A stretch of 64,000 nt of DNA from Pseudomonadota bacterium (GTDB lineage Bacteria > Pseudomonadota > Gammaproteobacteria > Burkholderiales > Thiobacillaceae). This document shows, piece after piece, positions 37,201 to 53,147 of the stretch (position 1 is its first letter; the number at the start of each line of letters is the position of its first letter). The translations under genes were made by a program, and so were the position numbers. Under the pieces are notes generated by a model. The model saw only the letters and a list, made by a program, of their open reading frames with translations. It was not told the origin of the DNA and did not search any database. The stretch covers positions 62,001 to 126,000 of the forward strand of contig JAKQCX010000015.1 of NCBI GenBank assembly GCA_029558905.1, given 5' to 3'.

Positions 37201-37935
37201 TCAGACGTAGCGTGCCCGGCGTTCCCGCTCCACGCGGTTGATGTAGCGCTGGATCTCCGTCTCCACGTTGGCCGGCAGGTCGATGAAGCGGCAACCCGCC
37301 CGATGCGTGGTACGGCCATTGCGCAGGGTGATGTCATAGGTGGAACACACCGTCAGGCTCACGGCGAAGGTGCCTGTCCCCGGCAACTCGATGCGGCAGC
37401 CGTGATAGGACTCCCCCGCGTGCAGCAGGCCCCTGCCCGCGTAGGCCAGGATCCCGATGCCGCCGATGCTGATATCCACTACGACGGTTTCCAGGAAGCG
37501 CTCGCCCAGGTTGATCTGGCACTTCACCGGATTCACCACGGAGGTGGCCAGCCGGTAGGTCTCACGGCGCTGCAGGCGCAGCATTTCCCGGGGGATGGCC
37601 ACCTGGAAGGCGGCACCCTTCCCCAGCTTCGCGGCCTTCACGTCGGTGCCAATGAATTCGATGTGCACCTGATCGTGAGTGCCGGCGCAAATGATGCGGC
37701 CGGCATCGAGAATCTGTCGGTTGAACTCCTGATCCACCCCCTGCTCCAGCAGCAGCACCCCCCTGTCCTCATCCAGCTGCATGATGGTGGAGAGCAGAAA
37801 GTCCCTGCCGTAATCTACATACAGATAGAGGATGGCTTTTGCGTCCTGTAACTCGCGTAGGATACGGTTGATGGTGGGCAGGTGGGTTATCCGGTAGCGG
37901 GCATCCTGCACGGAAAATGAAGGGGCCGTGGTCAT
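37201..37935 (-). CDS. YcgR-like c-di-GMP receptor (PilZ domain)
   Basis: 244 residues. An N-terminal YcgR domain (about 10-115) precedes a PilZ domain with the c-di-GMP binding residues RRETYR (RxxxR) and DISIGGIG (DxSxxG). In the family the protein slows flagellar motors when c-di-GMP is high; no flagellar genes are near. It is convergent with hemB, 15 bases apart, without a visible terminator. Confidence 0.93.
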   Translation of the reverse strand: MTTAPSFSVQDARYRITHLPTINRILRELQDAKAILYLYVDYGRDFLLSTIMQLDEDRGVLLLEQGVDQEFNRQILDAGRIICAGTHDQVHIEFIGTDVKAAKLGKGAAFQVAIPREMLRLQRRETYRLATSVVNPVKCQINLGERFLETVVVDISIGGIGILAYAGRGLLHAGESYHGCRIELPGTGTFAVSLTVCSTYDITLRNGRTTHRAGCRFIDLPANVETEIQRYINRVERERRARYV

Positions 37936-38052: not shown

Positions 38053-38859
38053 ATGACAGGTAATCCATTGAGTTTCCTAGACAAGCTGCGCTCCAGGAGT
38101 CGCGATTGGAACAAGACCATCGCCGTGGTGGAGCCCGTCTCGCGCCTGAGGAATATCGGCGTGGCCACGCCTGCCGTCGAACGCGTGCCGGCGCAGGAAT
38201 CCGGCGAGGTACACCAGGACCGTTTCAAGATCCGCCTCGCGCACAATCTGGCCCGCGTGGCCGAGGCGCGCTTTCTCGTGGAGCGCCGCTATCAGCAGAA
38301 GGGTTATCTGCCGCAGCAGGCCGGCAGCGACGGGCTGTCCGGATGCCCGGACAGCGTCACCCTGGCGACCTACAAGGGCGAGGAGATGATGGGCACCCTC
38401 ACCCTGGGGTTCGACGTGGGCGAGGGGTTGCTGGCGGATGCGCTGTACAAACCGGAGCTGGATGCCCTGCGTGCCAGCGGACGCCGCGTGTGCGAGTTCA
38501 CCAAGCTGGCCATCGACAACAAGCGCACCTCGAAACGGATGCTGGCGGGCCTGTTCCATATCGCCTATCTCTATGCCGAACGCATCTGGGGCTATACGGA
38601 CATCATCATCGAGGTCAATCCTTCCCACGTCAGCTTCTATGAGCGTCTGCTGGGCTTCCAGGTCATCGGCCCGGAACGCATATGCTCACGGGTGAATGCC
38701 CCGGCCGTACTGCTCAGGGCCGATACTGCCTGGGGCCGGGACATGGTGCGCAAGTTTGGCGGTCAGCCGGAGCTGGCCAAGAGTGAACGTTCCCTGTTCC
38801 CGTATTTCCTGTCGCTGGAAGAAGAAGGCAAAATTCTGTCGCGCCTGATGCAGGCGTAA
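38053..38859 (+). CDS. N-acyl amino acid synthase-like acyltransferase (FeeM type)
   Basis: 268 residues. The N-terminal ~55 residues are variable; the core (55-220) has the fold features of FeeM/LuxI-related GNAT acyltransferases: FKIRLAHNLARVAEARFLVERRY, then TLATYKGEEMMGTLTLG, CEFTKLAIDN and NPSHVSFYERLLGF (acyl-binding turn). Predicted to transfer an acyl chain from acyl-ACP to an amino acid or amine. It is the first of four tightly spaced genes. The exact substrate cannot be inferred. Confidence 0.8.
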   Translation: MTGNPLSFLDKLRSRSRDWNKTIAVVEPVSRLRNIGVATPAVERVPAQESGEVHQDRFKIRLAHNLARVAEARFLVERRYQQKGYLPQQAGSDGLSGCPDSVTLATYKGEEMMGTLTLGFDVGEGLLADALYKPELDALRASGRRVCEFTKLAIDNKRTSKRMLAGLFHIAYLYAERIWGYTDIIIEVNPSHVSFYERLLGFQVIGPERICSRVNAPAVLLRADTAWGRDMVRKFGGQPELAKSERSLFPYFLSLEEEGKILSRLMQA

Positions 38860-38884
38860 TGTCCAAACATGCTGGGGGGCAGGG

Positions 38885-39634
38885 GTGAACCCGGATCTGG
38901 GAGCCGCATTCAACGCATATTTCGAGCTCATCCATGCCGACACGGACGCGTTGCGCAGGCAGGTGTACGAGCTGCGCCATCAGGTCTATGTGCTGGAGAC
39001 CGGCTTCGAGTCCGAGCGGGACTGCACCTGCGTGGAGGTGGCCGGACGAGGGCGGGTGTGCTGGGAAACCGATGTGTACGACGCACGCGCGGATCACTAT
39101 CTCATCCGCCATCGCCGCACCGGTGTATATGCCGCCACCACGCGTCTGATCCTGCCGGACCCCAACGACCTGTCCGCGCCCTTTCCCATCGAGCTGCACT
39201 GCCCCCTGGATACCCCGGTCAGGGACCTGCAGACCCGTGCCCGGCTGGGAGAGATTTCCCGCTTCGCCGTCTCCAAGGTGTTCAAGCGGCGGATCGGCGA
39301 GCTGGGTACCCTGGCGGGGGTTTCAGACCATACCGACATGTACTTCGAGGCCGATGAACGCAGGGTGTTGCCGCACATCTCTCTGGGCCTGTTCGCCGGT
39401 GTGGTGCACATGGCCTACCGCCACCGCATCACCCACTGTTACGCGGTCATGGAGCCCGCCCTGCTGCGCCTCCTGGGGCGCTTCGGCGTGATCTTCAACC
39501 GCATCGGCGCCGACGTTGACTACCATGGCGTGCGCATTCCCTGCCTGGGCACGATGCAGGAAGCCCTGCCCAATATCCAGCGGGTCGCGCCTCCAGTGTG
39601 GGCGCTCATCACCTATCAGGGCAGATGGGCCTGA
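38885..39634 (+). CDS. PEP-CTERM/exosortase system-associated acyltransferase
   Basis: 249 residues from GTG 38885, with GGGG upstream. Segments LRRQVYELRHQVYVLETGFE, DHYLIRHRRTGVYAATTRLI and EISRFAVSKVFKRR match the family of acyltransferases that travel with exosortase loci (autoinducer-synthase-like fold). Product unknown. It follows the FeeM-like gene after 25 bases and precedes the ThiF-like gene by ten, so the two acyltransferases probably act in one pathway. Confidence 0.87.
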   Translation: MNPDLGAAFNAYFELIHADTDALRRQVYELRHQVYVLETGFESERDCTCVEVAGRGRVCWETDVYDARADHYLIRHRRTGVYAATTRLILPDPNDLSAPFPIELHCPLDTPVRDLQTRARLGEISRFAVSKVFKRRIGELGTLAGVSDHTDMYFEADERRVLPHISLGLFAGVVHMAYRHRITHCYAVMEPALLRLLGRFGVIFNRIGADVDYHGVRIPCLGTMQEALPNIQRVAPPVWALITYQGRWA

Positions 39635-39644
39635 AGGCACACCC

Positions 39645-40502
39645 ATGCACGCCTTTGACTATGACATCGCCTTTTCCCGCAACATCGGCTGGGTCACCCA
39701 GGCGGAACAGCAGCGCCTGAAGGCCGCGCGCGTGGCCATTGCCGGTTTGGGCGGCGTGGGCGGCTTTCACCTCCTGACCCTGGCCCGTCTGGGCATCGGC
39801 GGCTTCCATATCGCCGATCTGGACAGCTTCGAGCTGGCCAATTTCAACCGCCAGGCCGGCGCCCGCGTGAGCACCCTGCAGCAGCACAAGGCTGAGGTGC
39901 TGGCACGCATGGCCCGGGACATCAACCCCGAGGCGGAGATCCGTGTCTATGCGGACGGGGTCACCGCGGACAACCTGTCGGATTTTTTTACAGGCGTGGA
40001 CCTCTATGTGGACGGCCTGGATTTCTTTGCCTTCGCCGCGCGGGAGATGGTGTTCGCCCACTGCGCCCGCCAGGGCATCCCCGCCATCACCGTGGCCCCC
40101 CTGGGCATGAGCGCGGCCCTGCTCAACTTCCTGCCCGGGTGCATGGCCTTCGAGGACTATTTCCAGGTGGCCGGCAAGGCCGATCTGGAAAAGGCCATCC
40201 GCTTCCTGGTGGGGCTGGCTCCCGGTCTGCTGCACCGCCACTACCTGGCCGACAGGAGCCGGGTCGACCTCAAGGCGCGCAAGGGTCCGTCCACGGTTAT
40301 GGCCTGCCAGCTCTGTGCCGGGGTGGCCGCCACGGAAGCCCTCAAGCTCCTGCTGGGGCGTGGACGGGTGCTGGCCGCGCCGCATGGCATCCAGTTCGAC
40401 GCCTATCGCAACAAGCTGGCCCACACCTGGCGGCCAGGGGGCAATCGTCACCCCCTCAGCCGCCTGGCCATCGCCATCGCCAAACGCCAACTGGGGCTCT
40501 GA
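39645..40502 (+). CDS. Stand-alone E1/ThiF-family adenylyltransferase
   Basis: 285 residues. The nucleotide-binding GLGGVGG (34-40), the ADLDSFELANFNRQ segment (57-70) and Arg/Asn contacts are typical of ThiF/MoeB/E1 enzymes. Cys residues at 166 and in CQLC (221-224) are candidates for catalysis or zinc. There is no rhodanese domain and no neighbouring ubiquitin-like (ThiS/MoaD) gene, so it is unlikely to serve thiamine or molybdopterin synthesis; it may adenylate a carboxylate small molecule or peptide. Confidence 0.88.
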   Translation: MHAFDYDIAFSRNIGWVTQAEQQRLKAARVAIAGLGGVGGFHLLTLARLGIGGFHIADLDSFELANFNRQAGARVSTLQQHKAEVLARMARDINPEAEIRVYADGVTADNLSDFFTGVDLYVDGLDFFAFAAREMVFAHCARQGIPAITVAPLGMSAALLNFLPGCMAFEDYFQVAGKADLEKAIRFLVGLAPGLLHRHYLADRSRVDLKARKGPSTVMACQLCAGVAATEALKLLLGRGRVLAAPHGIQFDAYRNKLAHTWRPGGNRHPLSRLAIAIAKRQLGL

Positions 40503-40504
40503 GC

Positions 40505-41581
40505 ATGTCCACCCTGCCACCCCATATCGAGCGCATCCTGAATCTGGCCCGCTGGGCCCCAAGCGGCGACAACACCCAGCCCTGGCGCTTCCGCGTGATC
40601 GCCGGCGACCATGTGCGGGTCCTGGGTCATGACACCCGGGAGCACTGCGTGTATGACCTGGATGGCCATGCCAGCCAGATGGCGCATGGGGCACTGCTGG
40701 AGACCCTGGCCATTGCCGCTTCCGTGGAGGGCTTGCATGCCGACATCCGGCGCCTGCCCGAACAACCGGAGGAGCACCCGGTGTACGACGTGCGCCTGAA
40801 TGCCCGTCCGGGGCTGCGGCCCGATCCCCTGGTGGAATACATCGAGACACGTTGCGTGCAACGTCGCGCCATGTCCATGCGACCCCTGGAAGCCGGACAC
40901 AGGCGGGACCTGGAAGCCAGCGTGCCCGGCTATCGCCTGGTCTGGTTCACGGGCCTGGCCGAGCGTTGGCGCGTGGCACGCTTCATGGCCGCCAACGCCA
41001 AGAACCGACTCACCATGCCCGAGGCCTGGCCCACGCACAGCAGCATCATCGAATGGCATGCCAGGTTCAGCCAGGACCGCATCCCCGATCGTGCGGTGGG
41101 CGTGGACCCGCTGACCGCGCACCTGATGCGCTGGGCCCTGGGCAGCTGGAGGCGTGTGGATTTCCTCAATACCTGGCTGGCTGGCACACTCATGCCCCGC
41201 ATCCAGCTCGATCTGGTGCCCGGTGTGCGCTGTGCGGCCCACCTCGTCCTGCTGGCCAGCCGGCCGCCGGTGGATGTGGACGGGCATGTGGCCGCGGGCC
41301 GCGCCCTGCAAAGGCTCTGGCTCACCGCCAGCCGGCACGGCCTGTACATGCAGCCGGAAATGACACCGGTGATCTTTTCCCGCTACGTACGTGCGGGACA
41401 GACCTTTACCCGGGTGGAGGCGGTAAACGCCCGGGCACGGAGACTGGCAGCCCGGCTGGAGGGCTGGCTGGGGGTGGAAGGGGCCCAGCGGGTGGTGTTC
41501 ATGGGCCGCCTGGGATATGGTCCCGCACCCGGGTCGCGCTCCTTGCGCAGACCGCTGGACCAGCTGCTGCTCGGGCCATGA
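40505..41581 (+). CDS. Nitroreductase-like protein
   Basis: 358 residues, two bases after the ThiF-like stop. RWAPSGDNTQPWRFRV near residue 15 is a typical FMN-binding start of nitroreductase-fold enzymes; the middle (LDLVPGVRCAAHLVLLAS) and C-terminal (GRALQRLWLTASRHGLYMQPEM) segments also fit. Long for a simple nitroreductase. It may oxidise or reduce a ring or amide of the product. Fusions of ThiF-like and nitroreductase domains are known to me in mycobacteria (Rv1355c type), which supports a functional link, though I could not check this. Confidence 0.85.
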   Translation: MSTLPPHIERILNLARWAPSGDNTQPWRFRVIAGDHVRVLGHDTREHCVYDLDGHASQMAHGALLETLAIAASVEGLHADIRRLPEQPEEHPVYDVRLNARPGLRPDPLVEYIETRCVQRRAMSMRPLEAGHRRDLEASVPGYRLVWFTGLAERWRVARFMAANAKNRLTMPEAWPTHSSIIEWHARFSQDRIPDRAVGVDPLTAHLMRWALGSWRRVDFLNTWLAGTLMPRIQLDLVPGVRCAAHLVLLASRPPVDVDGHVAAGRALQRLWLTASRHGLYMQPEMTPVIFSRYVRAGQTFTRVEAVNARARRLAARLEGWLGVEGAQRVVFMGRLGYGPAPGSRSLRRPLDQLLLGP

Positions 41582-41770: not shown

Positions 41771-41786
41771 TGGCATGGGAGGTGCT
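41771..41786 (+). promoter_or_regulatory. Sigma-54 (-24/-12) promoter of the PEP-CTERM gene
   Basis: TGGCATGGGAGGTGCT: GG (-24) and GC (-12) are separated by exactly ten bases; consensus is TGGCAC-N5-TTGCW, so only two positions differ. Start of transcription is expected near 41797, about 70 bases before the ATG. PEP-CTERM genes in related bacteria depend on sigma-54 and PrsR, whose genes are in this window. Confidence 0.75.
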
Positions 41787-41867: not shown

Positions 41868-42794
41868 ATGTCTGCAATCAAGCTTACCGCCCTGGCCGCA
41901 GCCCTCTGTGCCACTGTGGCCACCGTACCCGCACACGCCTATGTCAGCGCCACCGCGGTGTTCGAGATGTCCAATCTGCTGTTCAGCAATTCCGGCACCG
42001 GCACCACGCTGGACGCCTCGGACTTCAGCTTCCTGACCTGGACGACCACCGCCGGCATGAGCGGCAACCTCAACGCCGCCACCTTCGGCCCATTTTCTTC
42101 CAGTGCCGCGAACACCAATTTTGCCCCCGCCTGCGTGGGCAGCGGCTGCGGCGCCCTGGGGCTGGTGAATGATTCCTGGGCCCATGCCGGCGACCCGCCC
42201 GTGGGCGACTATGCCGCTGCGGACCAGTTGGAGTCCGGCGCGCCCATCACCGGCATCACTGGTCTGGTAGCACCCGCCACCATCGGTCAGTCCGCCTATG
42301 CCGCCCTGGCATCCGGCAGCGGCCTGGCGTCCGCCGACACCAACAACAACCTGAACTCCAGCTTCGTGTTCAAGCTTGGCAGCAGCATGGCGGTGGACAT
42401 CGACTTCGATATGGACGCCTACATGATGGTGTCCGTGACCGGAAGCGAGGCCTTCCCCGGCTTTGCCACCGCCAACACCGAGCAGGTGTTCACCATCACC
42501 GACCTCAGCACCGGGACCGACATCTTTACCTGGAGCGTGGATATCTTCGGCGGCGGCACCAAGACCATCAGCCTGAACGCGCCGCTGCCCGGGAGCTTCA
42601 CCCTCACGCGCAACGAGGTCGCAGGCCACTTCAACAACACCACGCCGATCCTGACCGCTGGCACGCTTTACCAGCTGTCCGCCCGCTCCAACGTGAACGC
42701 GGACGTGGGCCGTGCCGTACCCGAGCCCGCAGTGCTGGGCCTGCTGGGGATCGGCCTCCTGGGCCTGGGTCTGGCCCGCCGCCGCAGCGCCTGA
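41868..42794 (+). CDS. PEP-CTERM domain surface protein
   Basis: 308 residues with a good ribosome binding site (GGAG). Signal peptide ending near AHA-YVS (about 1-23). The mature part is rich in Ser, Thr, Gly, Ala and Asn with a low charge, typical of surface or matrix proteins, and has one possible disulfide (CVGSGCG). The C-terminal 25 residues are VPEP, a hydrophobic helix and RRR: the PEP-CTERM sorting signal, cleaved and re-attached by an exosortase. No other functional domain recognised. It follows the nitroreductase gene by 286 bases but has its own sigma-54 promoter. Confidence 0.93.
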   Translation: MSAIKLTALAAALCATVATVPAHAYVSATAVFEMSNLLFSNSGTGTTLDASDFSFLTWTTTAGMSGNLNAATFGPFSSSAANTNFAPACVGSGCGALGLVNDSWAHAGDPPVGDYAAADQLESGAPITGITGLVAPATIGQSAYAALASGSGLASADTNNNLNSSFVFKLGSSMAVDIDFDMDAYMMVSVTGSEAFPGFATANTEQVFTITDLSTGTDIFTWSVDIFGGGTKTISLNAPLPGSFTLTRNEVAGHFNNTTPILTAGTLYQLSARSNVNADVGRAVPEPAVLGLLGIGLLGLGLARRRSA

Positions 42795-43024: not shown

Positions 43025-43801
43025 TCACTGCAGCTTCTTCAGGTAGTCCTTGGAGAACACCTTGTCCGGCAGGTCGCGCAGCTTCATCTGCCCGTACTCC
43101 AGCACCGACTGCTCGCCCGCTTTGAGGGCATCGGTCATGACCAGGCGGGTGGGACGCAGTCTGCCGGCCATGTTGCGGTAGTCTTCGTAACCGCAGGTCT
43201 TCATGAGGCGGTTGGACAGGGTGTAGAACTCGGCCCTTTTCGGGCGATAGTTGGCCTTGTTCACCCAGAGCAGCACACGACGGTAGGTCACCCCCCGGTC
43301 CACGCCGATCAGCTCGAGCACGTAGTGTTCCTCGCCATCCAGCACTTCCGTGCGCAGAATGCTCGGGTTGTAGTCACCGGAAAAGTTGGCCCGTGCCAGA
43401 TCGCCGTTCGCCACCTCGCCGGTGAGACGCTGGGCCAGGCCCAGGCGGATGGGCTGGGAGACGTTGGGCATGAATACCCACAGGTCACGTCCCTTCATGA
43501 GCATGATCTGACCCCGTTCCGAGGCGGGTTCCAGTATCATGACCACGGTGTTTTCGTTGCCCTTGGAGAGCACGCGGTACTTGCGGCTTTCCTGCCCCGA
43601 TTCCCGGCCGGTACTGGTGATATGGATATCCACCTGGAAGCCGTCCGTCGGGAAACGGATGGCGTCGGACCTTTCCAGGATGGTGCGCGCCAGGCTGTCT
43701 TCCTGGCCGGGGTTCTGAGCCATCGCCGTATACGCGGCCATGGCGAGCCAGGCCGCGAGAGCCCGGGACATACATGCACGGAGTAAGGATGAATGGGTCA
43801 T
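43025..43801 (-). CDS. LolA-like outer-membrane lipoprotein-sorting protein
   Basis: 258 residues from ATG 43801. A signal peptide (ending near AMA-QNP, about 28) leads to a LolA-like fold with ILEPASERGQIMLMKGRDLWVFMPNVSQPIRL and later LLWVNKANYRPKRAEFYT, typical of the uncharacterised LolA-like family that accompanies ABC exporters. It is divergent by 45 bases from the ATPase gene. It probably carries a lipophilic substrate across the periplasm between the ABC exporter and the outer membrane protein. Confidence 0.9.
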   Translation of the reverse strand: MTHSSLLRACMSRALAAWLAMAAYTAMAQNPGQEDSLARTILERSDAIRFPTDGFQVDIHITSTGRESGQESRKYRVLSKGNENTVVMILEPASERGQIMLMKGRDLWVFMPNVSQPIRLGLAQRLTGEVANGDLARANFSGDYNPSILRTEVLDGEEHYVLELIGVDRGVTYRRVLLWVNKANYRPKRAEFYTLSNRLMKTCGYEDYRNMAGRLRPTRLVMTDALKAGEQSVLEYGQMKLRDLPDKVFSKDYLKKLQ

Positions 43802-43846
43802 TTGAGTCTGCCTGCGAGAATTTCGCCCATGTTCGGGTAATGCACC

Positions 43847-44599
43847 ATGAGCCTCGTGCGTGTTGAAGGGGTGACCAAGGAGTACATGCTGGGCGAGCAG
43901 AAGGTGGTCGCGCTGCGCGATATTACACTCGCTTTCGACGAGGGCGTGTTCCTGGCCATCGCCGGCCCTTCGGGCAGCGGCAAGACCACCCTGCTCAACA
44001 TCATCGGCTGCATCGACACCCCCACCACGGGGCGGGTGTTCATCGATGGGCGGGAGGTGACCGGCCTGTCCGGAGATGCGCTGGCCGATCTGCGCGCACG
44101 CACCACCGGTTTCATCTTTCAGACCTTCAACCTGTTTCCCGTGCTTTCGGCCGCGGAAAACGTGGAGTACCCCCTGCTGCAGTTGCCGGAATTGGCGCTC
44201 AAGGAACGCAGGAAGCGGGTACGGCGCTATCTGGCCATGGTGGGCCTGGAGAAATACGCCGACCATACCCCCAACCAGCTCAGTGGCGGCCAGCGTCAGC
44301 GCGTGGCCATCGCAAGGGCCCTGGCCATCCACCCACGCATCGTGTTGGCGGACGAGCCCACCGCCAATCTGGACAGCAAGACCGGCGAGGGCATCTTGCT
44401 GCTCATGAAGGACATCAACCGCCAGCTGGGCACCACCTTCATCTTTTCCACGCATGACCGCAAGGTCATGTCCATGGCGGATCGTCTGGTGCGTATCGAA
44501 GACGGTCATCTGGCCATGCTGGCGGTACGGGTCAATTCCAAGTGGCAGGGTGTGCGCACCCCGCGCGCCCATGCAACCCCTCAAGAGAATCGTGTATGA
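43847..44599 (+). CDS. MacB/LolD-type ABC transporter ATPase
   Basis: 250 residues. Walker A GPSGSGKT (40-47), Q-loop FQTFNLFP, signature LSGGQRQRVAIARAL, Walker B IVLADEPTANLD and switch His (FSTHDRK) are intact. The sequence is of the LolD/MacB/SalX class, which pairs with FtsX-type permeases such as those at 46290 and 47513. Its stop overlaps the start of the next gene (ATGA). Confidence 0.95.
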   Translation: MSLVRVEGVTKEYMLGEQKVVALRDITLAFDEGVFLAIAGPSGSGKTTLLNIIGCIDTPTTGRVFIDGREVTGLSGDALADLRARTTGFIFQTFNLFPVLSAAENVEYPLLQLPELALKERRKRVRRYLAMVGLEKYADHTPNQLSGGQRQRVAIARALAIHPRIVLADEPTANLDSKTGEGILLLMKDINRQLGTTFIFSTHDRKVMSMADRLVRIEDGHLAMLAVRVNSKWQGVRTPRAHATPQENRV

Positions 44600-46287
44600 A
44601 TACAGGCATTCCCTTCACCTTCGGACCCTGGATCCTGGCGCTGCCCCTGCTGTTCTGCGTACCTGCCGCCCTGGCCGCGGAGGAGCCCCCCTCGTCCAGG
44701 GATGCCCTGTTCGGGCTGGAGGATGAAGGCCCAGCGAGTCGCGCCCCCGAACCCCCAGCCACGAGCCGGGAGGCGCTGTTCGGTGACCTGCCCCCAGCCG
44801 AGGACAGGACCGCAACCGCCCCGAGCGCCGGACCGGCCGCGGAGTCCAGGGATGCCCTGTTCGGGCTGGAGGATGAAGGCCCGGCGAGCCGCGCCCCCGA
44901 ACCCCCGGCCACGAGCCGGGAGGCGCTGTTCGGTGACCTGCCCCCGGCCGGGGACAGTACCGCAACCGCCCCGGGCGCCGGACCGGCCGCGGCGTCCCGG
45001 GAGGCCCTGTTCGCGGCACCGGGCCCGGCCGCGGCCCAGGCGGCCGGGAAGTCGGCAGCGGGCTCGCGCTGGCATGGCTTCTTCCAGGGTGAGGCGGCCT
45101 ATACCTACGCCAGTCCCGGCCACTGGTCGAAGACCCTGGGCCGCCTGGAACTGGGCACCCAGGGCAAGCTGCGCCCGGGGGTGCAATACAAGCTCAGCGG
45201 CCGGGTGGACTACAACCCGGTGTATGACCTGAACGACTTCTACCAGAGCCGTGTGGCACGGGATCAGCGCGCCGAATTCCACATTCGTGAGACCTATCTG
45301 GACTTCAGCGCCGCCAGCCTGGACTGGCGCGTGGGGCGTCAGCACGTGGTGTGGGGTGAGATGGTGGGCCTGTTTTTCGCGGATGTGGTATCCGCCAAGG
45401 ACATGCGTGAATTCGTGCTGCCGGATTTCCAGATCCTGCGCATTCCCCAGTGGGCAGCCCGGGCCGAGTATTTCAAGGACGACTTCCATGCCGAGATGGT
45501 GTGGATCCCCTTTCCCAGTTATGACGAGATCGGCAAGGCGCAGTGGCCGGGTTCCGGACATGGTGCGGACTTCTACCCCTATCCCCTGGACCCGAAACGC
45601 TACCCCGCGCAGATCCTGAGTGATCAAAAACCCGGCACCCGCCTGGCGCACGGCAACTTCGGCGCGCGCCTGTCCATGCTCAAGGACGGCTGGGACGTAT
45701 CCGGTTTTTACTACACCAGCATGGACAGCACCCCCACCTTCCACTGGACCGGGCCATTCACCATCACCCCCAGGCATGCGCGCATCCGCCAGGTGGGGGG
45801 TACCCTGGCCAAGGACTTCAGGGATTTCGTGCTCAAGGCAGAGGCGGTATACACCAATGGCCGGCGCTACAACCTGCTCACCGTGAACCCCGCCGCACCG
45901 CCCGCGGATGGTGGGGTGGTGCGCCAGAACACCCTGGACTGGGCCGTGGGCCTGGATTTCAACCCCACAAGCGACACCCGGGTCAATACACAGCTATTCC
46001 AGCGCTACTTTTTCGACCACGACCCCAACATCATCCCCGATCGGGCTGAGAGCGGCGCCTCGCTGTTGCTCAGCCACGGCTTCTCCAACCGCTGGCAGGC
46101 CGAGGCCCTGCTGGTGCACAGCCTGAACCGGCGTGACTGGATGTTCCGACCCAAGGCCATCTGGAACTTCCAGCCCAACTGGAAGGTGACCTTTGGTCTG
46201 GATGTGTTCGGCGGCCCCACCACCGGCCTGTTTGGTCGGTACGACCAGTGTGATCGGGGCTATGTGGAGTTGCGCCACGACTTCTGA
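44596..46287 (+). CDS. DUF1302-like outer-membrane protein with N-terminal repeats
   Basis: 563 residues from ATG 44596, coupled to the ATPase gene. A signal peptide (about 1-27, ALA-AEE) is followed by a low-complexity region (28-155) of two 50-residue repeats plus a partial third, each with SR(D/E)ALF motifs. The rest (about 160-563) is a beta-rich domain typical of DUF1302-type outer membrane beta-barrels (aromatic strand ends, closing RHDF). Its job is probably to pass the exporter's substrate to or through the outer membrane. Overlapping the ATPase gene supports joint action. Confidence 0.85.
   Translation: MNTGIPFTFGPWILALPLLFCVPAALAAEEPPSSRDALFGLEDEGPASRAPEPPATSREALFGDLPPAEDRTATAPSAGPAAESRDALFGLEDEGPASRAPEPPATSREALFGDLPPAGDSTATAPGAGPAAASREALFAAPGPAAAQAAGKSAAGSRWHGFFQGEAAYTYASPGHWSKTLGRLELGTQGKLRPGVQYKLSGRVDYNPVYDLNDFYQSRVARDQRAEFHIRETYLDFSAASLDWRVGRQHVVWGEMVGLFFADVVSAKDMREFVLPDFQILRIPQWAARAEYFKDDFHAEMVWIPFPSYDEIGKAQWPGSGHGADFYPYPLDPKRYPAQILSDQKPGTRLAHGNFGARLSMLKDGWDVSGFYYTSMDSTPTFHWTGPFTITPRHARIRQVGGTLAKDFRDFVLKAEAVYTNGRRYNLLTVNPAAPPADGGVVRQNTLDWAVGLDFNPTSDTRVNTQLFQRYFFDHDPNIIPDRAESGASLLLSHGFSNRWQAEALLVHSLNRRDWMFRPKAIWNFQPNWKVTFGLDVFGGPTTGLFGRYDQCDRGYVELRHDF
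44695..44994 (+). repeat. Two tandem 150-bp repeats (partial third copy to about 45020)
   Basis: 44695-44844 and 44845-44994 are nearly identical; a degenerate third copy begins at 44995. Each unit codes for 50 residues with SRDALFGLEDEG and SREALFGDLPP blocks. High identity points to recent duplication, a likely site of length variation between strains. Confidence 0.93.
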
Positions 46288-46289
46288 CC

Positions 46290-47501
46290 TCAGACATTCT
46301 GGCGCAGGGCGTCGATGACCGGAATGCGGCCCACGCGGGCGGCGGGCAGCAGGGCGGCCAGCACGGTGGCCACCACTCCCACCGCCAAGGCCCCCAATAC
46401 CACCGTGGGCACGATGCGGATGTGGGCGGTATAGGTCAAGTCCGCATTGGGCGGAGGCGGCATGGGAATGCCAATGGCCGAGATGAGCAGCGCCAGGATC
46501 ACGCCGATGACGACCCCGGCCAGTGAACCGGCCAGGCCGATGATCAGGTTCTCGCGCAGGATGAGCTCCGTCACCCGGCGACCGCGGTTGCCGAGCGCCA
46601 TCATGGTACCGAATTCGCCCACGCGCTCGAATACGCTCATGTTGACGCTGTTGGCCACGGACAGCAGCACCATGAGGAGGATGATCAGGCGCAGCACGCC
46701 GAACTGCACGTCGTACATCTCCACGGTCTTGGCGTAGAAATCGTTCAGCTTCAGCCAGGTATTGATTTCCAGGCCTCGGTCGCCCAGCGCGTGTTGCAGG
46801 TGGGCACGCACGGGTTCGGTCAGGCCGGTTTCCCGCAGCGCGACCACCAGCACATTCACCGTCGGTGCGTCCAGCAGGTCCTGTGCCGCGCTCAGGGGAA
46901 TGCGCACCGCGCGTGCATCGTAATCCTTGGAGAAGGTCTGGAAGGTGCCGACGATCTCGAACTCCATGCTGTTGAGCGCGCCGTCCGGGGTGTTGATCAC
47001 CAGGGTGACCCAATCGCCGGGCTTCAGCTTCAGGGCCCGGGCCAGACCGTGGCCGATCATCATGCCGTGCGCATCTGCGTCGGCCAGTCGCCTGCCGGCG
47101 GATATGACCATGCCGCTGCCCAGGCGGGCCTCGCGCGCCGGCTCCACGCCCTCACCGATGATGGGCAAGTCCGCCCGCCCGTTGTTGAGCAGGCCGGAGA
47201 AGTACAGGCGCCCCATCACATCGACGACACCGGGTGTAGCAACGATCCGGGCGCGCAAGGCCTCGGGCCCGTCGATCAGGTACTTGTCCGGGCTGCGCGC
47301 ACCGTGCGCGTAATAACCCTTGTTGGCGATCTGCAGGTGGCCGGACTGGGAATGGATCAGGACCTCGCCCAGCTGGGTGAAGATATCGTGCACGAAGCCA
47401 CCGCTGAGGATCAGGCCCACCACCCCGACGATGATGGCCAGCAGGGTCATCCCCGTGCGCACCTTGTGGCGCAGGACGTTGCGGAGGGCGAGCTTCCACA
47501 T
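46290..47501 (-). CDS. FtsX-family ABC transporter permease (second)
   Basis: 403 residues from ATG 47501. An N-terminal membrane segment (MWKLALRNVLRHKVRTGMTLLAIIVG), a large periplasmic domain (MacB_PCD-like, about 40-250), and three C-terminal membrane segments with FtsX motifs. It forms the exporter membrane part with the gene at 47513 (gap 11 bases) and the ATPase at 43847. It is convergent with the outer-membrane gene, two bases apart. Confidence 0.92.
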   Translation of the reverse strand: MWKLALRNVLRHKVRTGMTLLAIIVGVVGLILSGGFVHDIFTQLGEVLIHSQSGHLQIANKGYYAHGARSPDKYLIDGPEALRARIVATPGVVDVMGRLYFSGLLNNGRADLPIIGEGVEPAREARLGSGMVISAGRRLADADAHGMMIGHGLARALKLKPGDWVTLVINTPDGALNSMEFEIVGTFQTFSKDYDARAVRIPLSAAQDLLDAPTVNVLVVALRETGLTEPVRAHLQHALGDRGLEINTWLKLNDFYAKTVEMYDVQFGVLRLIILLMVLLSVANSVNMSVFERVGEFGTMMALGNRGRRVTELILRENLIIGLAGSLAGVVIGVILALLISAIGIPMPPPPNADLTYTAHIRIVPTVVLGALAVGVVATVLAALLPAARVGRIPVIDALRQNV

Positions 47502-47512
47502 GGGCGTTGGTC

Positions 47513-48736
47513 TCAACGGTTGTGGCGCAGCGCATCCACGATGACCAGGCGGGAGGCGCGCCAGGCCGGGTAGATGCTCGCCAGCAGGGTGGTGGCCAGC
47601 GCCAGCAACAGGGCCTGGATGACGCTGGACGGCGTGATGATGATGCCGGCGATGAACCCTCGCGACATGCCTGGGGCGGGAGGCATGGGGATGCCGATGG
47701 CGGAGATGGCCTGGGCCGCCAGGTAGCCCAGGATGACCCCGCAGACCCCGCCGATGGCACCCAGCAAGCCCCCTTCCATCAGGAACAGCCTCAGGATCCT
47801 CTGGCGGCGCACCCCCAGTGCCATGGCGGTACCGATCTCCACGGTGCGCTCCATCACGCTCATGGTCATGGTGTTGCTGATGCTGAGCACGATGATGGCG
47901 GCAATGATGAGCTTCACCACGCCCATCTGACGCGAGAACAGCGCCACGGTCTTGTTGTAGAAGTCTGCCAGCTCGGTCCAGGGCACCACCTTCAGGCCCT
48001 TGAAGGCGGGGTCGGCCCGCAGGCGCGCGCTCACCGCGGGGGTGAGTTCGGTCTGCCGCAGGGTCGCCACCCACAGATGCGCGCCTTGCGTGCGCAACAG
48101 CCCCTGTGCGGTGATGAGGGGGATGCGCAGGATGTTGTCGTCGAAGGCCTTCATGGAGGTGGAAATCAGACCGCGCACGTGGCCTTCGATGGCGTTGATG
48201 CCCCCGCTGGCGGTGTTGGCGAGCAGCACGACGGTGTCTCCGGTCTGCACGCCCAGGTTGGCCGCCAGACCGGCGCCCAGCACGATGCCCTTCGGGTCCC
48301 GATTGGAAGGCAGCCGCCCCTGCAGCACCAGCAGATTGCGGAAGGAGGGGTCCTTGTCCGGATCAATGCCCTCGCCGATGAAGGAAAGCGTGCTGTCACC
48401 ATGGCTGATCAATCCGTTGAAGGCCAGGCGCGGCGCCACATTGCGGATTTCCGGCTGGCGTTCCAGGGTTTCGATGGCGCTGGACCGGGCCGGCATCAGG
48501 TAACGGAAGGGGTCGGCCAAACCCTCCTCGTGAAAGCCGGGCATGGCCACCTGGATGTGCCCCAGCTGGTTGACCGTGGCCAGCTCGCGGTTGGCCCAGT
48601 AGATCCATTCGATGTAGCCCACGGAAAGCATCATGGAGACCACGCCAAAGCCGATGGCGGCCACGGCAATCAGGCTGCGCCGGCGCTGGCGCAGGATGTT
48701 GCGCAGGGCAAGACGAAAGTCGATGCGGATCGTCAT
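47513..48736 (-). CDS. FtsX-family ABC transporter permease (first)
   Basis: 407 residues from ATG 48736; a GTG at 48754 would add six. Same architecture as its neighbour: an N-terminal anchor (MTIRIDFRLALRNILRQRRRS...), a periplasmic domain and a C-terminal FtsX domain (VVKLIIAAIIVLSISNTMTMSVMERT). The two permeases share the FtsX family but are divergent, so they probably form a heterodimer as LolC/LolE do. Confidence 0.92.
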   Translation of the reverse strand: MTIRIDFRLALRNILRQRRRSLIAVAAIGFGVVSMMLSVGYIEWIYWANRELATVNQLGHIQVAMPGFHEEGLADPFRYLMPARSSAIETLERQPEIRNVAPRLAFNGLISHGDSTLSFIGEGIDPDKDPSFRNLLVLQGRLPSNRDPKGIVLGAGLAANLGVQTGDTVVLLANTASGGINAIEGHVRGLISTSMKAFDDNILRIPLITAQGLLRTQGAHLWVATLRQTELTPAVSARLRADPAFKGLKVVPWTELADFYNKTVALFSRQMGVVKLIIAAIIVLSISNTMTMSVMERTVEIGTAMALGVRRQRILRLFLMEGGLLGAIGGVCGVILGYLAAQAISAIGIPMPPAPGMSRGFIAGIIITPSSVIQALLLALATTLLASIYPAWRASRLVIVDALRHNR

Positions 48737-48896
48737 GCCGGGTGCCACGTACACTCATTGGCGGCGACGCGCCGCACCGAACCCCACCACCGATCAGGGC
48801 CGCCGGCGGGGGGCATGCGGGTCCGGGAGCCGCGCGCACGCATGCCCGGCGGGCTGCATCCAGCACCTGTGCATGGCCGGGTTCCCATGACCGTCG

Positions 48897-51668
48897 TTAC
48901 AGGCCTTGGAGCAGGCTCCTGGCATGCTCCGCACCGGGGAATGACTTGCCCGCCCCGATGGCCGCGGCCAGTTCCTTTCTGGCCTCGGCTGTCTGGCCGT
49001 TTTGCAGCAGTGCCACGCCATGGTGATAGCGAATGACGGGGTTATCCGGCAGCTTGGCGGCCGCTTTGGAGAGCAGGTCCAGACTCCGCGGCAACTGCTT
49101 CTGCTCCAGCAGTATCCACCCCAGGGTATCCATGACCATGGGTTGTCCAGGGGCGAGCTTGTGGGCCTGTTCCGCCGTGGCAAGCGCGCGCGGGTCCTTC
49201 ACCTGCTGGTAGAGGGAGGCCAGATTGTTCAGCGCCTGCGCATTGGCGGGTTGGCGTTTCAGCAGTGATTCGTACTGCGCAATGGCCTCGCGCGGGCGTT
49301 TGCCGAACAGATAGACCTCCGCGGCATAGCTGCGGGCGGTGTTGTCTTCGGGGTGCGACTTCAGCCAGGCCATGAGTTTCTGCTCGGCCGCCTGGCTGTC
49401 TCCGCCAAGGGTCAGCGCACGGTGCAGCTTGAGAACGGAGAAGGTGTTGGCGGCGATGGCGAAGGACTGCGCATAGGCCTTCGAGGCCAGGGGGTAACGT
49501 TTCTGCGCCAGCAGGATGTCGCCCTCGCGGTCGAATCCGAGCGGCGACCCGGGATGCCGGGCTTGAATTTGCCGCGCGAGGGTGAGTGCCGTTTCGGGCT
49601 TGCCGTCCTGCAGCTCCAATTTCAGCAGGGCATCCTGCGCCTTGAGGAAATCCGGCTTGATCTGCAGTGCTTCGCGGAGCGTGCCGCGCGCCGCTTCCGT
49701 CTGCCTGCCGGCGGCCTGGGCCTGGGCCAGCAGCAACAGGGCGTGGGGTGATTGCGGCGCCTTCGTCACCATGCGCTTGTATGTTTCGATCGCCGCATCG
49801 TTCTCCTGTGCGGCCAGCTGGGTGGTGCCCAGCAGGTTGAGGGCGGCCAAGCTTTCGGGGTTGGCATTGACGGCCTGCCTGGCCGTGGCGACGGCCTTCG
49901 CATTCTCCCGGCCGTTCAGATAGTGGCGCACCAGCATCTGGCGCACGCCCAGATCCTTGGGGTCTGTCTTGAGGGCCTTATCCAGCCAGCCCACGAACTC
50001 TTTGTCTTTATTTTCCGTCAGGGCAAGTTCCGCCAGGGCCTGCATGGCCCTGACATTGGTACCGTCCTTGCCCAGGATCGCCTCGAAACGCTTGCGCGCG
50101 GCCTCGGGTTTTTTTTCGACCAGGTCCAGACGGGCCAGGTTGAGCGCGGCTGTAATGAAGGTGGGTTGGATGACGAGTGCCCGTTCCAGGGCGTCACGGG
50201 CGCCCTGGGTATCTTGCTTGCCAAGCAGGGCGGCGGCCCGGAGATTATAGGTCACCGGGTTGGCCGGCAGTTTCTTCTCCAGCGCCTTGATGGCCTGCAA
50301 GGCCTGGTCATATTCCTTGTCGCGCAGATGCAGCATGACCAGTGCCAGATCCGCGCGTCCGGCCCTCTCGCTCGTGCCCGTGACCTTCTCCAGGTCGGCG
50401 ATGGCCTTCCGACTCTCGCCAATCGACAGGTGCCCTGCCGCCTGGCGCTCCCGGATGGCGGCGTTTTCCGGATCGATGGCGGCGGCCCTGTCGAGATAAG
50501 CCATGGCCTTGTTGTATTCCTTGGCCTGGAGATAGGCCTCGCCCGTCAGGGCCAGCAGTTTCGCATCGTCCGGATAGCGGACCAGCAAGGGTTGCAGCGT
50601 CTTCAGTGCCTCCGGCACCGCGCCGATCCTGATCTGGCTGCCTGCCTGGATCAGGGAGGCCCGGTAGTCGTCCGGAACCGCGGCGAGGACCTTTTCAGCG
50701 AACTTCAGGCTCTGCTCGTATTGGCCCTGGGCATAGCTGGCCATGGCATAGGCCAGGGCGGAGGGGAGGTGATCGGGTACGACGCGCAGCACGTCCAGCA
50801 GGGCACTGCTCGCTTCTTCCAGCTTGCCCCGCCTCAACTCGAATATGCCGCGCGCATAGCGCACCTCCAAGGCCTTGTCAGCGATCTTTTCTGCCGCCAG
50901 GATGGACTTCTCGGCTTCCCGCGGGAGGTTTTTCGCCCATTGGATATCGGCGATGGCCAGGTGGGCCTGGTATTCGGCCGGATCGTTGGCGAGCACCCGT
51001 CGGTAGAGGCCGATGGCTTCATCCAGTCTGTTTTCCTGCAGGAGCAGGCCGGCCTTGAGGTACAGGGCCTCCTTCTGCTTGGGGTCCGCCTGCAGCACGG
51101 TTTCGAGCTTTTGCCGTGCGGCCTTGGCATCCTGATCCGCCAGGGCCAATCTGGCCTGGAGCAGGAGCAGGTCGGGCAGCATGGGGTTGGCCTGTTGCGC
51201 GGCCAGCAGGTCTGGCTGGGCCTGTTCCCGCCTGCCCGTGGCAATGAAGGCCGTGGCGCGCGCGGTGTGCAGCATGGCCAGGGCGGTGGGGCCCAGGCCG
51301 CTCCGGGGTATGGGGAGCTTGAGCACCTTGTCATGTTCGCCCAGACGCAGCATGGACATGGCCAGGATACCCAGGGTCTGGTCATCGCTGGCACCCAGCT
51401 GTCTGGCCCTCTGCAATTCCTTCTCCGCGTCCTCGTAGGACCCCAATTGGTAGTGGGCCTGCGCCAGGAGCAGGCGCGCCTCCAGGTCCGTGGGGCGGCC
51501 CTGGAGTGTGGACTTGAGCTCGATGACCGCCGCCTTGTAGTCGGCCTTCTGGAAGAAGGCCTTGCCATCGTCCAGATGCTGCTCCGTGGACTTGCCGCAT
51601 CCGGCCAGACCGAGCAGCAGGACGAGCGCCAGGGTGGGGATGCGGGAGGTGTGGCGACGTGCGTTCAT
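48897..51668 (-). CDS. prsT: PEP-CTERM system TPR-repeat lipoprotein PrsT
   Basis: 923 residues. The lipobox LGLAGC (Cys about 24) shows it is a lipoprotein. The rest is almost entirely TPR-like repeats (for example SYEDAEKELQRARQLGA, EYQAHLAIADIQWAKN, GQYEQSLKFAEKVLAAVPDDYR), about twenty in total. It matches the large TPR lipoprotein that accompanies prsR and prsK in exosortase loci and is probably a periplasmic scaffold for polysaccharide export. It ends the transcription unit; prsR is 123 bases upstream. Confidence 0.95.
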   Translation of the reverse strand: MNARRHTSRIPTLALVLLLGLAGCGKSTEQHLDDGKAFFQKADYKAAVIELKSTLQGRPTDLEARLLLAQAHYQLGSYEDAEKELQRARQLGASDDQTLGILAMSMLRLGEHDKVLKLPIPRSGLGPTALAMLHTARATAFIATGRREQAQPDLLAAQQANPMLPDLLLLQARLALADQDAKAARQKLETVLQADPKQKEALYLKAGLLLQENRLDEAIGLYRRVLANDPAEYQAHLAIADIQWAKNLPREAEKSILAAEKIADKALEVRYARGIFELRRGKLEEASSALLDVLRVVPDHLPSALAYAMASYAQGQYEQSLKFAEKVLAAVPDDYRASLIQAGSQIRIGAVPEALKTLQPLLVRYPDDAKLLALTGEAYLQAKEYNKAMAYLDRAAAIDPENAAIRERQAAGHLSIGESRKAIADLEKVTGTSERAGRADLALVMLHLRDKEYDQALQAIKALEKKLPANPVTYNLRAAALLGKQDTQGARDALERALVIQPTFITAALNLARLDLVEKKPEAARKRFEAILGKDGTNVRAMQALAELALTENKDKEFVGWLDKALKTDPKDLGVRQMLVRHYLNGRENAKAVATARQAVNANPESLAALNLLGTTQLAAQENDAAIETYKRMVTKAPQSPHALLLLAQAQAAGRQTEAARGTLREALQIKPDFLKAQDALLKLELQDGKPETALTLARQIQARHPGSPLGFDREGDILLAQKRYPLASKAYAQSFAIAANTFSVLKLHRALTLGGDSQAAEQKLMAWLKSHPEDNTARSYAAEVYLFGKRPREAIAQYESLLKRQPANAQALNNLASLYQQVKDPRALATAEQAHKLAPGQPMVMDTLGWILLEQKQLPRSLDLLSKAAAKLPDNPVIRYHHGVALLQNGQTAEARKELAAAIGAGKSFPGAEHARSLLQGL

Positions 51669-51791
51669 GCGGGGTTCCCTGATGAATGTGTACTCCGCGG
51701 AGAGCGGCAATGGATCTGCTTTCGGATTGATTGGATCGATCCGCGCCTTACCTCGGCCCGCGGCAAGACGCGCATGCGGAGGGATGCGCGA

Positions 51792-53147
51792 TTATTTCAG
51801 CCCAAACCTCCCCATGAGGTCATACAGCGTGGGGCGGGATACGCCGAGTAGCTCGGCGGCCTGCGCCACATTGCCGTTGCTGCGCGCGATGGCGCGGGTG
51901 ACGGCGTGGCGTTCGGCCGCATCCCTGACCTGACGAAGGTTGAGGGGGTGTTCATCCTCGGCGTGCACGGGGTTCATGCCCAGGTCCTCGCAGGTGATCT
52001 GCGCACCATCCGCCATGATGACCGCACGCTTGAGGGTATTTTCCATCTCGCGCACGTTGCCTGGCCAGGCGTGCGCTTCGATGGCCTGCAGGGCGTCCGG
52101 GGCAATGCCACGCAGACTGCGCTTCTGCGTCTGGTTGAAGCGTTCCAGGAAGGCGTGGGCGAGCAGGGCCTTGTCGCCCTTGCGTTCGCGCAGGGGCGGG
52201 ATGTTCACGGTGATTTCCGATAGCCGGTAGAACAGGTCCTCGCGGAAGCGGCCCTCCTTGATCAGCTCTTCCAGGTTCTGGTGGGTGGCGGCCACCACGC
52301 GTACGTCCACGGGGATCTCGCCGCGCCCCCCCAGGCGCTCGATGACCCGCTCCTGCAGGAAGCGCAGCAGCTTGGCCTGCAGGGACATGGGCAGGTCGCC
52401 GATCTCGTCCAGGAACAGGGTGCCCTTGTCGGCGTATTCGATCTTGCCGATGGTCTGTTTGGCCGCGCCGGAGAATGCCCCCTTTTCGTAGCCGAAGAGC
52501 TCGGATTCCAGCAGGTTTTCGGGAATCGCGGCGCAGTTGATGGCGACGAAACGCGCGCGCGCGCGCGGAGAGAGTTCGTGCACGCCCCGGGCCAGGATCT
52601 CCTTGCCCGTGCCCGATTCACCCAGCAGCAGGATGGAGGCATCGCTGGGGGCGACTTTCTCGATCATGCGGCAGATCTTGATCATTTGCGCATCGTTGGT
52701 GATCAGGCCTTGCAGCGGTTCCGCCCGGTTGCGCGCGGCCAGGGCACGGTTTTCCTGCTCCAGTTCATAGACCTTGAAGGCGCGCTCGATCACCAGTTTG
52801 AGGATCGGTTCCTCGAAGGGTTTGTGGTAGAAGTCGAAGGCGCCCATGCCGATGGCCCGGATGGCATTGGCCCGGTCCTGGTTGCCGGTGATGACGATGA
52901 TCTTCGCGCACGGCGTGAGCTGCAGGATCTGCTGCAGGGCCGCCAGACCTTCCGTGGCGCCATCCGGGTCCGGTGGCAGTCCCAGGTCCAGCAGGACCAC
53001 GGCAGGCTCGAAGCGGCGCACATGATTCAGCCCGCCTTCCCGATCACCGGCCATGATCACTTCATAGCCTTCCAGGCTCCACTTGATCTGCTTCTGCAGG
53101 CCCACATCGTCTTCCACCAGCAGAATCCTGCCTGCCTTTTCGCTCAT
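51792..53147 (-). CDS. prsR: PEP-CTERM-box sigma-54 response regulator PrsR
   Basis: 451 residues. Receiver domain with D54 and K109; AAA+ domain with Walker A GESGTGKE (176-183), GAFSGA (223-228, the sigma-54 loop with Ser for Thr), Walker B LFLDE (244-248); C-terminal Fis-type helix-turn-helix (GNVAQAAELLGVSRPTLYDLMGRFGL). Unlike the NtrX-like protein it has all the parts of an active sigma-54 ATPase. It overlaps prsK by four bases. The likely target is the -24/-12 promoter at 41771. Confidence 0.96.
   Translation of the reverse strand: MSEKAGRILLVEDDVGLQKQIKWSLEGYEVIMAGDREGGLNHVRRFEPAVVLLDLGLPPDPDGATEGLAALQQILQLTPCAKIIVITGNQDRANAIRAIGMGAFDFYHKPFEEPILKLVIERAFKVYELEQENRALAARNRAEPLQGLITNDAQMIKICRMIEKVAPSDASILLLGESGTGKEILARGVHELSPRARARFVAINCAAIPENLLESELFGYEKGAFSGAAKQTIGKIEYADKGTLFLDEIGDLPMSLQAKLLRFLQERVIERLGGRGEIPVDVRVVAATHQNLEELIKEGRFREDLFYRLSEITVNIPPLRERKGDKALLAHAFLERFNQTQKRSLRGIAPDALQAIEAHAWPGNVREMENTLKRAVIMADGAQITCEDLGMNPVHAEDEHPLNLRQVRDAAERHAVTRAIARSNGNVAQAAELLGVSRPTLYDLMGRFGLK

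Follow-up and report, generated by a model that had tools for sequence, protein, structure and literature searches.

An exosortase-linked operon with two acyltransferases, a ThiF-like enzyme and a flavin-dependent oxidase: a probable acyl-oxazolone or N-acyl dehydro-amino acid pathway

What could be made by two different acyltransferases, an E1/ThiF-like enzyme and a nitroreductase-like protein when all four are encoded together beside genes of the exosortase system? The question is raised by a locus of a bacterium in the Thiobacillaceae (Gammaproteobacteria; Burkholderiales), at 38053-41581 on the plus strand of a stretch of 64,000 nucleotides (the window; positions 62,001 to 126,000 of contig JAKQCX010000015.1, assembly GCA_029558905.1), and the four genes are referred to as A to D in their order along the strand (Table 1). 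The original prediction had described an operon that looks like a biosynthetic pathway tied to the exosortase/exopolysaccharide system, with an acyl-amino acid derivative as an example of what it might act on; the open reading frames (ORFs), strand and gaps (25 bases for A-B, 10 for B-C and 2 for C-D) are as described, each gene is backed by a profile match, and a survey of gene neighbourhoods gives the proposal strong support. Based on these genes and their homologues, the probable product of the operon is an oxazolone (azlactone) derived from an N-acyl amino acid, the ring-opened N-acyl dehydro-amino acid, or both, within the XrtA exosortase/PEP-CTERM programme. The kind of pathway is known, and the variant found here has two acyltransferases.

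The original prediction named no known product, but the same trio of enzymes has been characterised experimentally in Mycobacterium (TyzACB, PMC10404671; TrzAS, PMC12856293). TyzA or TrzA N-acylates an aromatic amino acid, a ThiF homologue adenylates and cyclises with ATP, and a nitroreductase relative desaturates with O2 to give an acyl-oxazolone (PMC10404671, PMC12856293); TrzS (Rv1355c) is a proven oxazolone synthetase acting on N-acyl tryptophan (PMC12856293). A trio of N-acyl amino acid synthase (NAS), ThiF and nitroreductase is also present in producers of the kyonggic acids (Massilia), thalassotalic acids (Thalassotalea) and stieleriacines (Stieleria), which are N-acyl dehydrotyrosines, and a Massilia producing saturated forms only is without ThiF and nitroreductase (PMC12479983). 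The profile matches of genes C and D fall on the two halves of the Rv1355c/TrzS model NF005901, one each, and those of genes A, C and D fall on consecutive stretches of the natural fusion model PRK14852. Four hallmarks of an oxazolone cluster are found in the operon: a FeeM/LuxI-fold amino-acid N-acyltransferase (A by profile, B by fold), a ThiF-like cyclase with intact ATP/adenylation residues, an Acg-like flavin-dependent oxidase (FDO) of the nitroreductase superfamily (D by fold and profile), and three genes that are adjacent or fused.

Gene C is an E1/ThiF-like adenylyltransferase, as had been predicted, with matches to ThiF PF00899 (1e-43) and to the unnamed equivalog model NF006077/PRK08223 (457 bits, cut-off 266). 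The glycine motif, N68-R69, K82 and D126 are invariant in gene C and 28 homologues, the adenylation residues align with those of TcdA, and D126 is inferred to be the counterpart of TrzS D217. With its ThiF/MoeB fold and adenylation residues, the protein could instead serve a distant ThiS/MoaD-type carrier and have unrelated neighbours, as the original prediction had allowed, but this reading is highly improbable and was rejected: the short gaps of the operon leave no room for the gene of a ubiquitin-like carrier, no invariant cysteine (zinc CXXC pairs or catalytic Cys) was found among the 28 homologues, many genomes encode the enzyme as a fusion with the oxidase, and two further ThiF-family genes able to serve ThiS/MoaD roles are present in the genome. 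The absence of a ubiquitin-like partner is to be expected since the known acyl-oxazolone ThiF enzymes cyclise N-acyl amino acids.

The two acyltransferases differ in the way that had been proposed, with gene A matching FeeM PF21926 (4e-49) and gene B matching TIGR03694, 'PEP-CTERM/exosortase system-associated acyltransferase' (3e-66; 223 bits, cut-off 112). Gene A, the sole FeeM-family gene found in the genome, also matches the sequence of the FeeM crystal structure 2g0b (E 1e-14). Among the control genomes, only Corynebacterium glutamicum has a FeeM-family (PF21926) match over the cut-off. A single-sequence search of gene B for solved structures found no relative; its AlphaFold model (mean predicted local distance difference test, pLDDT, 84) has the LuxI/FeeM fold and is best matched by acyl-homoserine lactone (AHL) synthases (RpaI, Z 17.4; TofI, Z 17.3), followed by FeeM (Z 15.8). 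In a profile alignment, the invariant R31, E61/D63/D66 and R87 of gene B align with the AHL synthases MesI and TofI, and the conserved Arg, E-x-D-x-x-D and Arg of LuxI AHL synthases are thus present in the N-terminal half.

This closeness to AHL synthases in fold and active-site residues would suit a gene B that stands outside the pathway and makes a LuxI-like acyl signal of its own, its place in the operon being accidental. A complete A-B-C-D set within 3 kb was found, among the surveyed loci, only in this window, and a B-type gene is present in 11 genomes without an exosortase, both of which are in keeping with a separate role. Such a role is nonetheless unlikely given the distribution of the gene. 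In a co-occurrence survey of 321 genomes of the class (ThiF of this type in 32, exosortase in 106), 24 of the 32 ThiF genomes carry TIGR03694 genes compared to 15 of the 289 others, and B-type genes adjoin C+D fusions that lack A and take the place of A between three and six times on the ThiF tree. By parsimony the acyltransferase type switches six times, with at least three switches forced by the starred branches of what is a quick tree with low support at many branches. Because the type changes repeatedly, gene B is probably an interchangeable N-acyl amino acid synthase, and the widespread TIGR03694 acyltransferases are suggested to be amino-acid N-acyltransferases. Four loci (L106, L116, L145 and L158) have two or three A-/B-type acyltransferases around a single ThiF, which may be compared with Stieleria maiorica and its four synthase genes.

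The linkage of the genes is conserved far beyond the window. A search of 18 other genomes of the genus found 11 close homologues of ThiF (≥70% identity); in every case A immediately precedes C, and the oxidase usually follows C. The A-C-D arrangement is conserved in the beta-proteobacteria, occurring with short gaps in Thiobacillus, Massilia, Nitrosospira, Ferrovum and Herbaspirillum, and some Massilia relatives carry it directly after prsT, while many gamma-proteobacteria possess a C+D fusion of about 660 amino acids with an adjoining B-type acyltransferase and no A. Across 120 ThiF loci, which are not mutually independent and some of which are truncated where a contig stops, 94 have D or a D domain no more than 3 kb from C or fused to it, and 82 have A or B within that distance; these counts are based on tblastn, which avoids the loss of some ThiF ORFs to overlapping ORFs in automatic gene maps. 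In one genome (G334) the genes run A-C-B, and D is some 19 kb distant. Since A-C-D or C+D is kept in many genera, the linkage is not due to chance. At one further locus (L089, 14631-15695), a Methyltransf_2-type O-methyltransferase gene is directly upstream of ThiF, which may be compared with the methylated stieleriacines.

Gene D proved nitroreductase-like, as predicted (PF00881, 4e-9), and also matches the Acg/Rv3131-family flavin mononucleotide (FMN) oxidoreductases (NF047509, 8e-36, below the cut-off) and, over the whole protein length, NF005901 of the Rv1355c/TrzS family (2e-31). The top PDB match of its AlphaFold model (pLDDT 90) is Acg 2ymv (E 1e-12; 8e-11 by profile); for the oxidase domain of TrzS, too, this structure was reported to be the nearest solved relative (PMC12856293). 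A clear adjoining oxidase is absent from 15 ThiF genomes, and 11 of these, spanning ten genera, have no D homologue genome-wide at E 1e-10 and only short or weak matches at E 0.01 (G336, G329, G055, G010, G309, G249, G124, G296, G107, G066 and G223, with G249 being a two-contig assembly). Desaturation is therefore optional and the ThiF step constant.

The exosortase system, which anchors proteins at the surface, is associated with the formation of flocs and biofilms, and there is strong evidence that the operon belongs to it. An exosortase is present in 31 of the 32 ThiF genomes as opposed to 75 of the 289 others (Fisher, 1e-15), and, counted by family, in 24 of 24 ThiF families as opposed to 45 of 151 (1e-11). 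The source genome has two exosortase genes (contigs C12 and C23, outside the contig of the window), and the window holds the core XrtA/PEP-CTERM genes prsT, prsR, prsK and epsB2 at 7-15 kb from the operon, so that an exosortase in the genome, these four together with PEP-CTERM genes at 41.9-56.6 kb, and co-distribution all mark an XrtA system. In several genomes the ThiF and exosortase genes are 12-47 kb apart on one contig, two loci (L080 and L082) have prsK-prsR and then a tetratricopeptide repeat (TPR) gene directly upstream of ThiF, and a PEP-CTERM gene, in some cases of the flocculation-associated PepA type, is found no more than three genes from ThiF in 63 of 106 mapped loci.

Parts of this link had been reported previously. 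In Aquincola, flocs need prsT and epsB2, and pepA is RpoN-dependent (PMC9850573), and in Methylomonas LW13 a distinct polysaccharide band is no longer formed when an exosortase-associated N-acyl amino acid synthase (ExoAT) is disrupted (PMC11072679). An association of synthases with the PEP-CTERM/exosortase system was reported earlier by Craig et al. 2011, as cited in PMC4897644, PMC7293339 and PMC11072679. The synthase-exosortase link is prior knowledge; the near-obligate genomic link between ThiF and exosortase is new. The openly accessible papers searched (closed papers were outside the scope) contained no extension of the exosortase link to the ThiF/oxidase steps or to oxazolones, and neither ThiF nor an acyltransferase is mentioned by Haft et al. 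2006. One paper contains both 'exosortase' and 'oxazolone', in unrelated contexts that establish no link.

The near constancy of ThiF with the exosortase, the eleven ThiF genomes that lack the oxidase (the two-contig G249 among them) and the proximity of PEP-CTERM genes would also be consistent with a ThiF enzyme that makes an activated acyl donor, either an acyl-adenylate or a saturated azlactone, for transfer of the N-acyl amino acid onto an exosortase-system nucleophile (a polysaccharide, a PEP-CTERM protein or a lipid carrier), with the oxidase as an extra found in certain lineages. As a class, azlactones are reactive acylating agents, which counts in favour of a donor. This role is decidedly unlikely, though, as no acceptor is known and the homologues of known function release small molecules. 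A wider proposal, itself rather unlikely, is that ThiF may be a core and previously unrecognised part of XrtA, with the azlactone as the signal of the system or as a source of acyl groups for a PEP-CTERM protein or a surface polymer, and with oxidation to the stable dehydro-oxazolone as a lineage-specific extra.

For the preferred oxazolone and/or dehydro-amino acid product, we infer by homology a pathway of four steps. Gene A, and probably also gene B with a different acyl or amino-acid preference, would transfer a fatty acyl group from acyl carrier protein (ACP) or coenzyme A (CoA) to the amino group of an amino acid, with tyrosine or phenylalanine as the likeliest substrate. Gene C would adenylate the carboxylate with ATP, upon which the amide oxygen would close the ring to a 5-oxazolone, and gene D, as an FMN oxidase, would introduce the alpha,beta double bond with O2 either before or after cyclisation. 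The product may then be exported via the neighbouring LolA-like/ABC/DUF1302 set. Expression and use would be tied to PrsK-PrsR-PrsT, the PEP-CTERM proteins and exopolysaccharide, and the product would likely act as a signal or surface lipid in floc or biofilm formation.

Several points weigh against this assignment. The product is predicted from genes and homology. Gene C scores below the cut-offs of both the TrzS and ThiF models (68 bits against the family model NF005901) and falls in its own unnamed family, PRK08223. With eleven ThiF genomes lacking a convincing D, the end product is therefore not identical everywhere. Finally, producers of kyonggic acid, thalassotalic acid and stieleriacine gave open dehydro-acids only, with no acyl-oxazolones observed (PMC12479983). 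It is accordingly possible, if tentative, that the oxazolone ring is a passing intermediate and that an open-chain N-acyl dehydrotyrosine or dehydrophenylalanine (kyonggic/thalassotalic type), or its ester, is released; open acids have come from producers carrying the same trio, and both acid and methanol hydrolyse oxazolones, but on mild extraction of the Tyz and Trz systems the oxazolone was the product detected.

What acyl-oxazolones do in the cell has been called an open question (PMC12856293), which the ThiF-exosortase link joins to the question of how N-acyl amino acid synthases relate to exosortase and exopolysaccharide. The link also points to a set of strains in which to pursue both, namely Massilia, Janthinobacterium, Thauera, Methylomonas and Thiobacillus relatives.

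Table 1. The operon and neighbouring features, in window coordinates.
Feature	Position	Strand	Description
Gene A	38053-38859	+	268 amino acids; FeeM-type N-acyl amino acid synthase (PF21926)
Gene B	38885-39634	+	249 amino acids, GTG start; TIGR03694 exosortase-associated acyltransferase
Gene C	39645-40502	+	285 amino acids; ThiF-like adenylating cyclase, PRK08223 type
Gene D	40505-41581	+	358 amino acids; flavin-dependent oxidase, nitroreductase superfamily, Acg/FDO type
PilZ/YcgR-like gene (cyclic di-GMP receptor type)	37201-37935	-	PF07317 2e-21, PF07238 7e-10; divergent from A
Sigma-54-like site TGGCATGGGAGGTGCT	41771-41786	+	10/12 consensus positions, exact GG/GC core; intergenic, upstream of PEP-CTERM gene
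PEP-CTERM gene, EDSAP-1 family (exosortase substrate)	41868-42794	+	NF041538 217 bits (cut-off 100), TIGR02595 24.5 bits
LolA-like carrier gene	43025-43777	-	PF17131 8e-49
LolD/DevA-like ATP-binding cassette (ABC) ATPase gene	43847-44599	+	TIGR02982 2e-62, TIGR02211 7e-62, both below cut-off
DUF1302 gene	44596-46287	+	PF06980 1e-10
Two LolCE/MacB-type permease genes	46290-48074, 47513-48754	-	PF02687 and PF12704 in both; TIGR02212 7e-25 in first; ORF starts uncertain
prsT	48897-51710	-	TIGR02917, far above cut-off
prsR	51792-53147	-	TIGR02915, far above cut-off
prsK	53144-55195	-	TIGR02916, far above cut-off
epsB2	55197-56579	-	TIGR03013, far above cut-off

The PEP-CTERM gene that the original prediction placed downstream of the operon is present and is one of eight PEP-CTERM matches in the genome. 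The sigma-54 promoter assigned to it fared less well: a site is found at 41771 and is plausible, but it is weak by itself because such sites are not in excess in the window (10 found, 9.1 expected from shuffled sequence). A consensus scan of the window found no sigma-54-like site directly upstream of gene A. The PilZ/YcgR-like gene adjoins A divergently in ten loci of the genus (L052-L061), and the Mycobacterium trzAS locus likewise neighbours cyclic di-GMP genes (PMC12856293). Based on their family matches, the LolA-like, ABC, DUF1302 and permease genes (43025-48754) could possibly form a lipid exporter. LolA-like and DUF1302 proteins, along with MMPL transporters or LolD/MacB-type ABC parts, are found near ThiF in many genomes, distant ones among them, and the tyz cluster of M. 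tuberculosis is flanked by mmpL9 (PMC10404671).

Each of the known systems shares part of the arrangement in the window. The PEP-CTERM-associated synthases that PMC4897644 and PMC7293339 cite from Craig et al. 2011, and ExoAT of Methylomonas LW13 (PMC11072679), share the synthase-exosortase linkage, but the ThiF/oxidase steps are absent from the system as cited. The kyonggic acid, thalassotalic acid and stieleriacine clusters (PMC12479983, PMC7293339) have NAS, ThiF and nitroreductase, with a PEP-CTERM gene in the Stieleria cluster, but differ from the window in that no TIGR03694 gene is described between synthase and ThiF, in the methyltransferases of Stieleria, and in having known product structures. 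In Mycobacterium TrzAS (PMC12856293) and in the Pseudoalteromonas rubra OxzAB cited in that paper, a ThiF cyclase and an FDO adjoin the acyltransferase, although the two are fused and the gene context differs. TyzACB of M. tuberculosis (PMC10404671) is unlike the window in being actinobacterial, with a single acyltransferase on the opposite strand and no exosortase context described, but it has an mmpL gene nearby and, as in the window, a separate amino-acid N-acyltransferase, ThiF-like cyclase and single-domain FDO.

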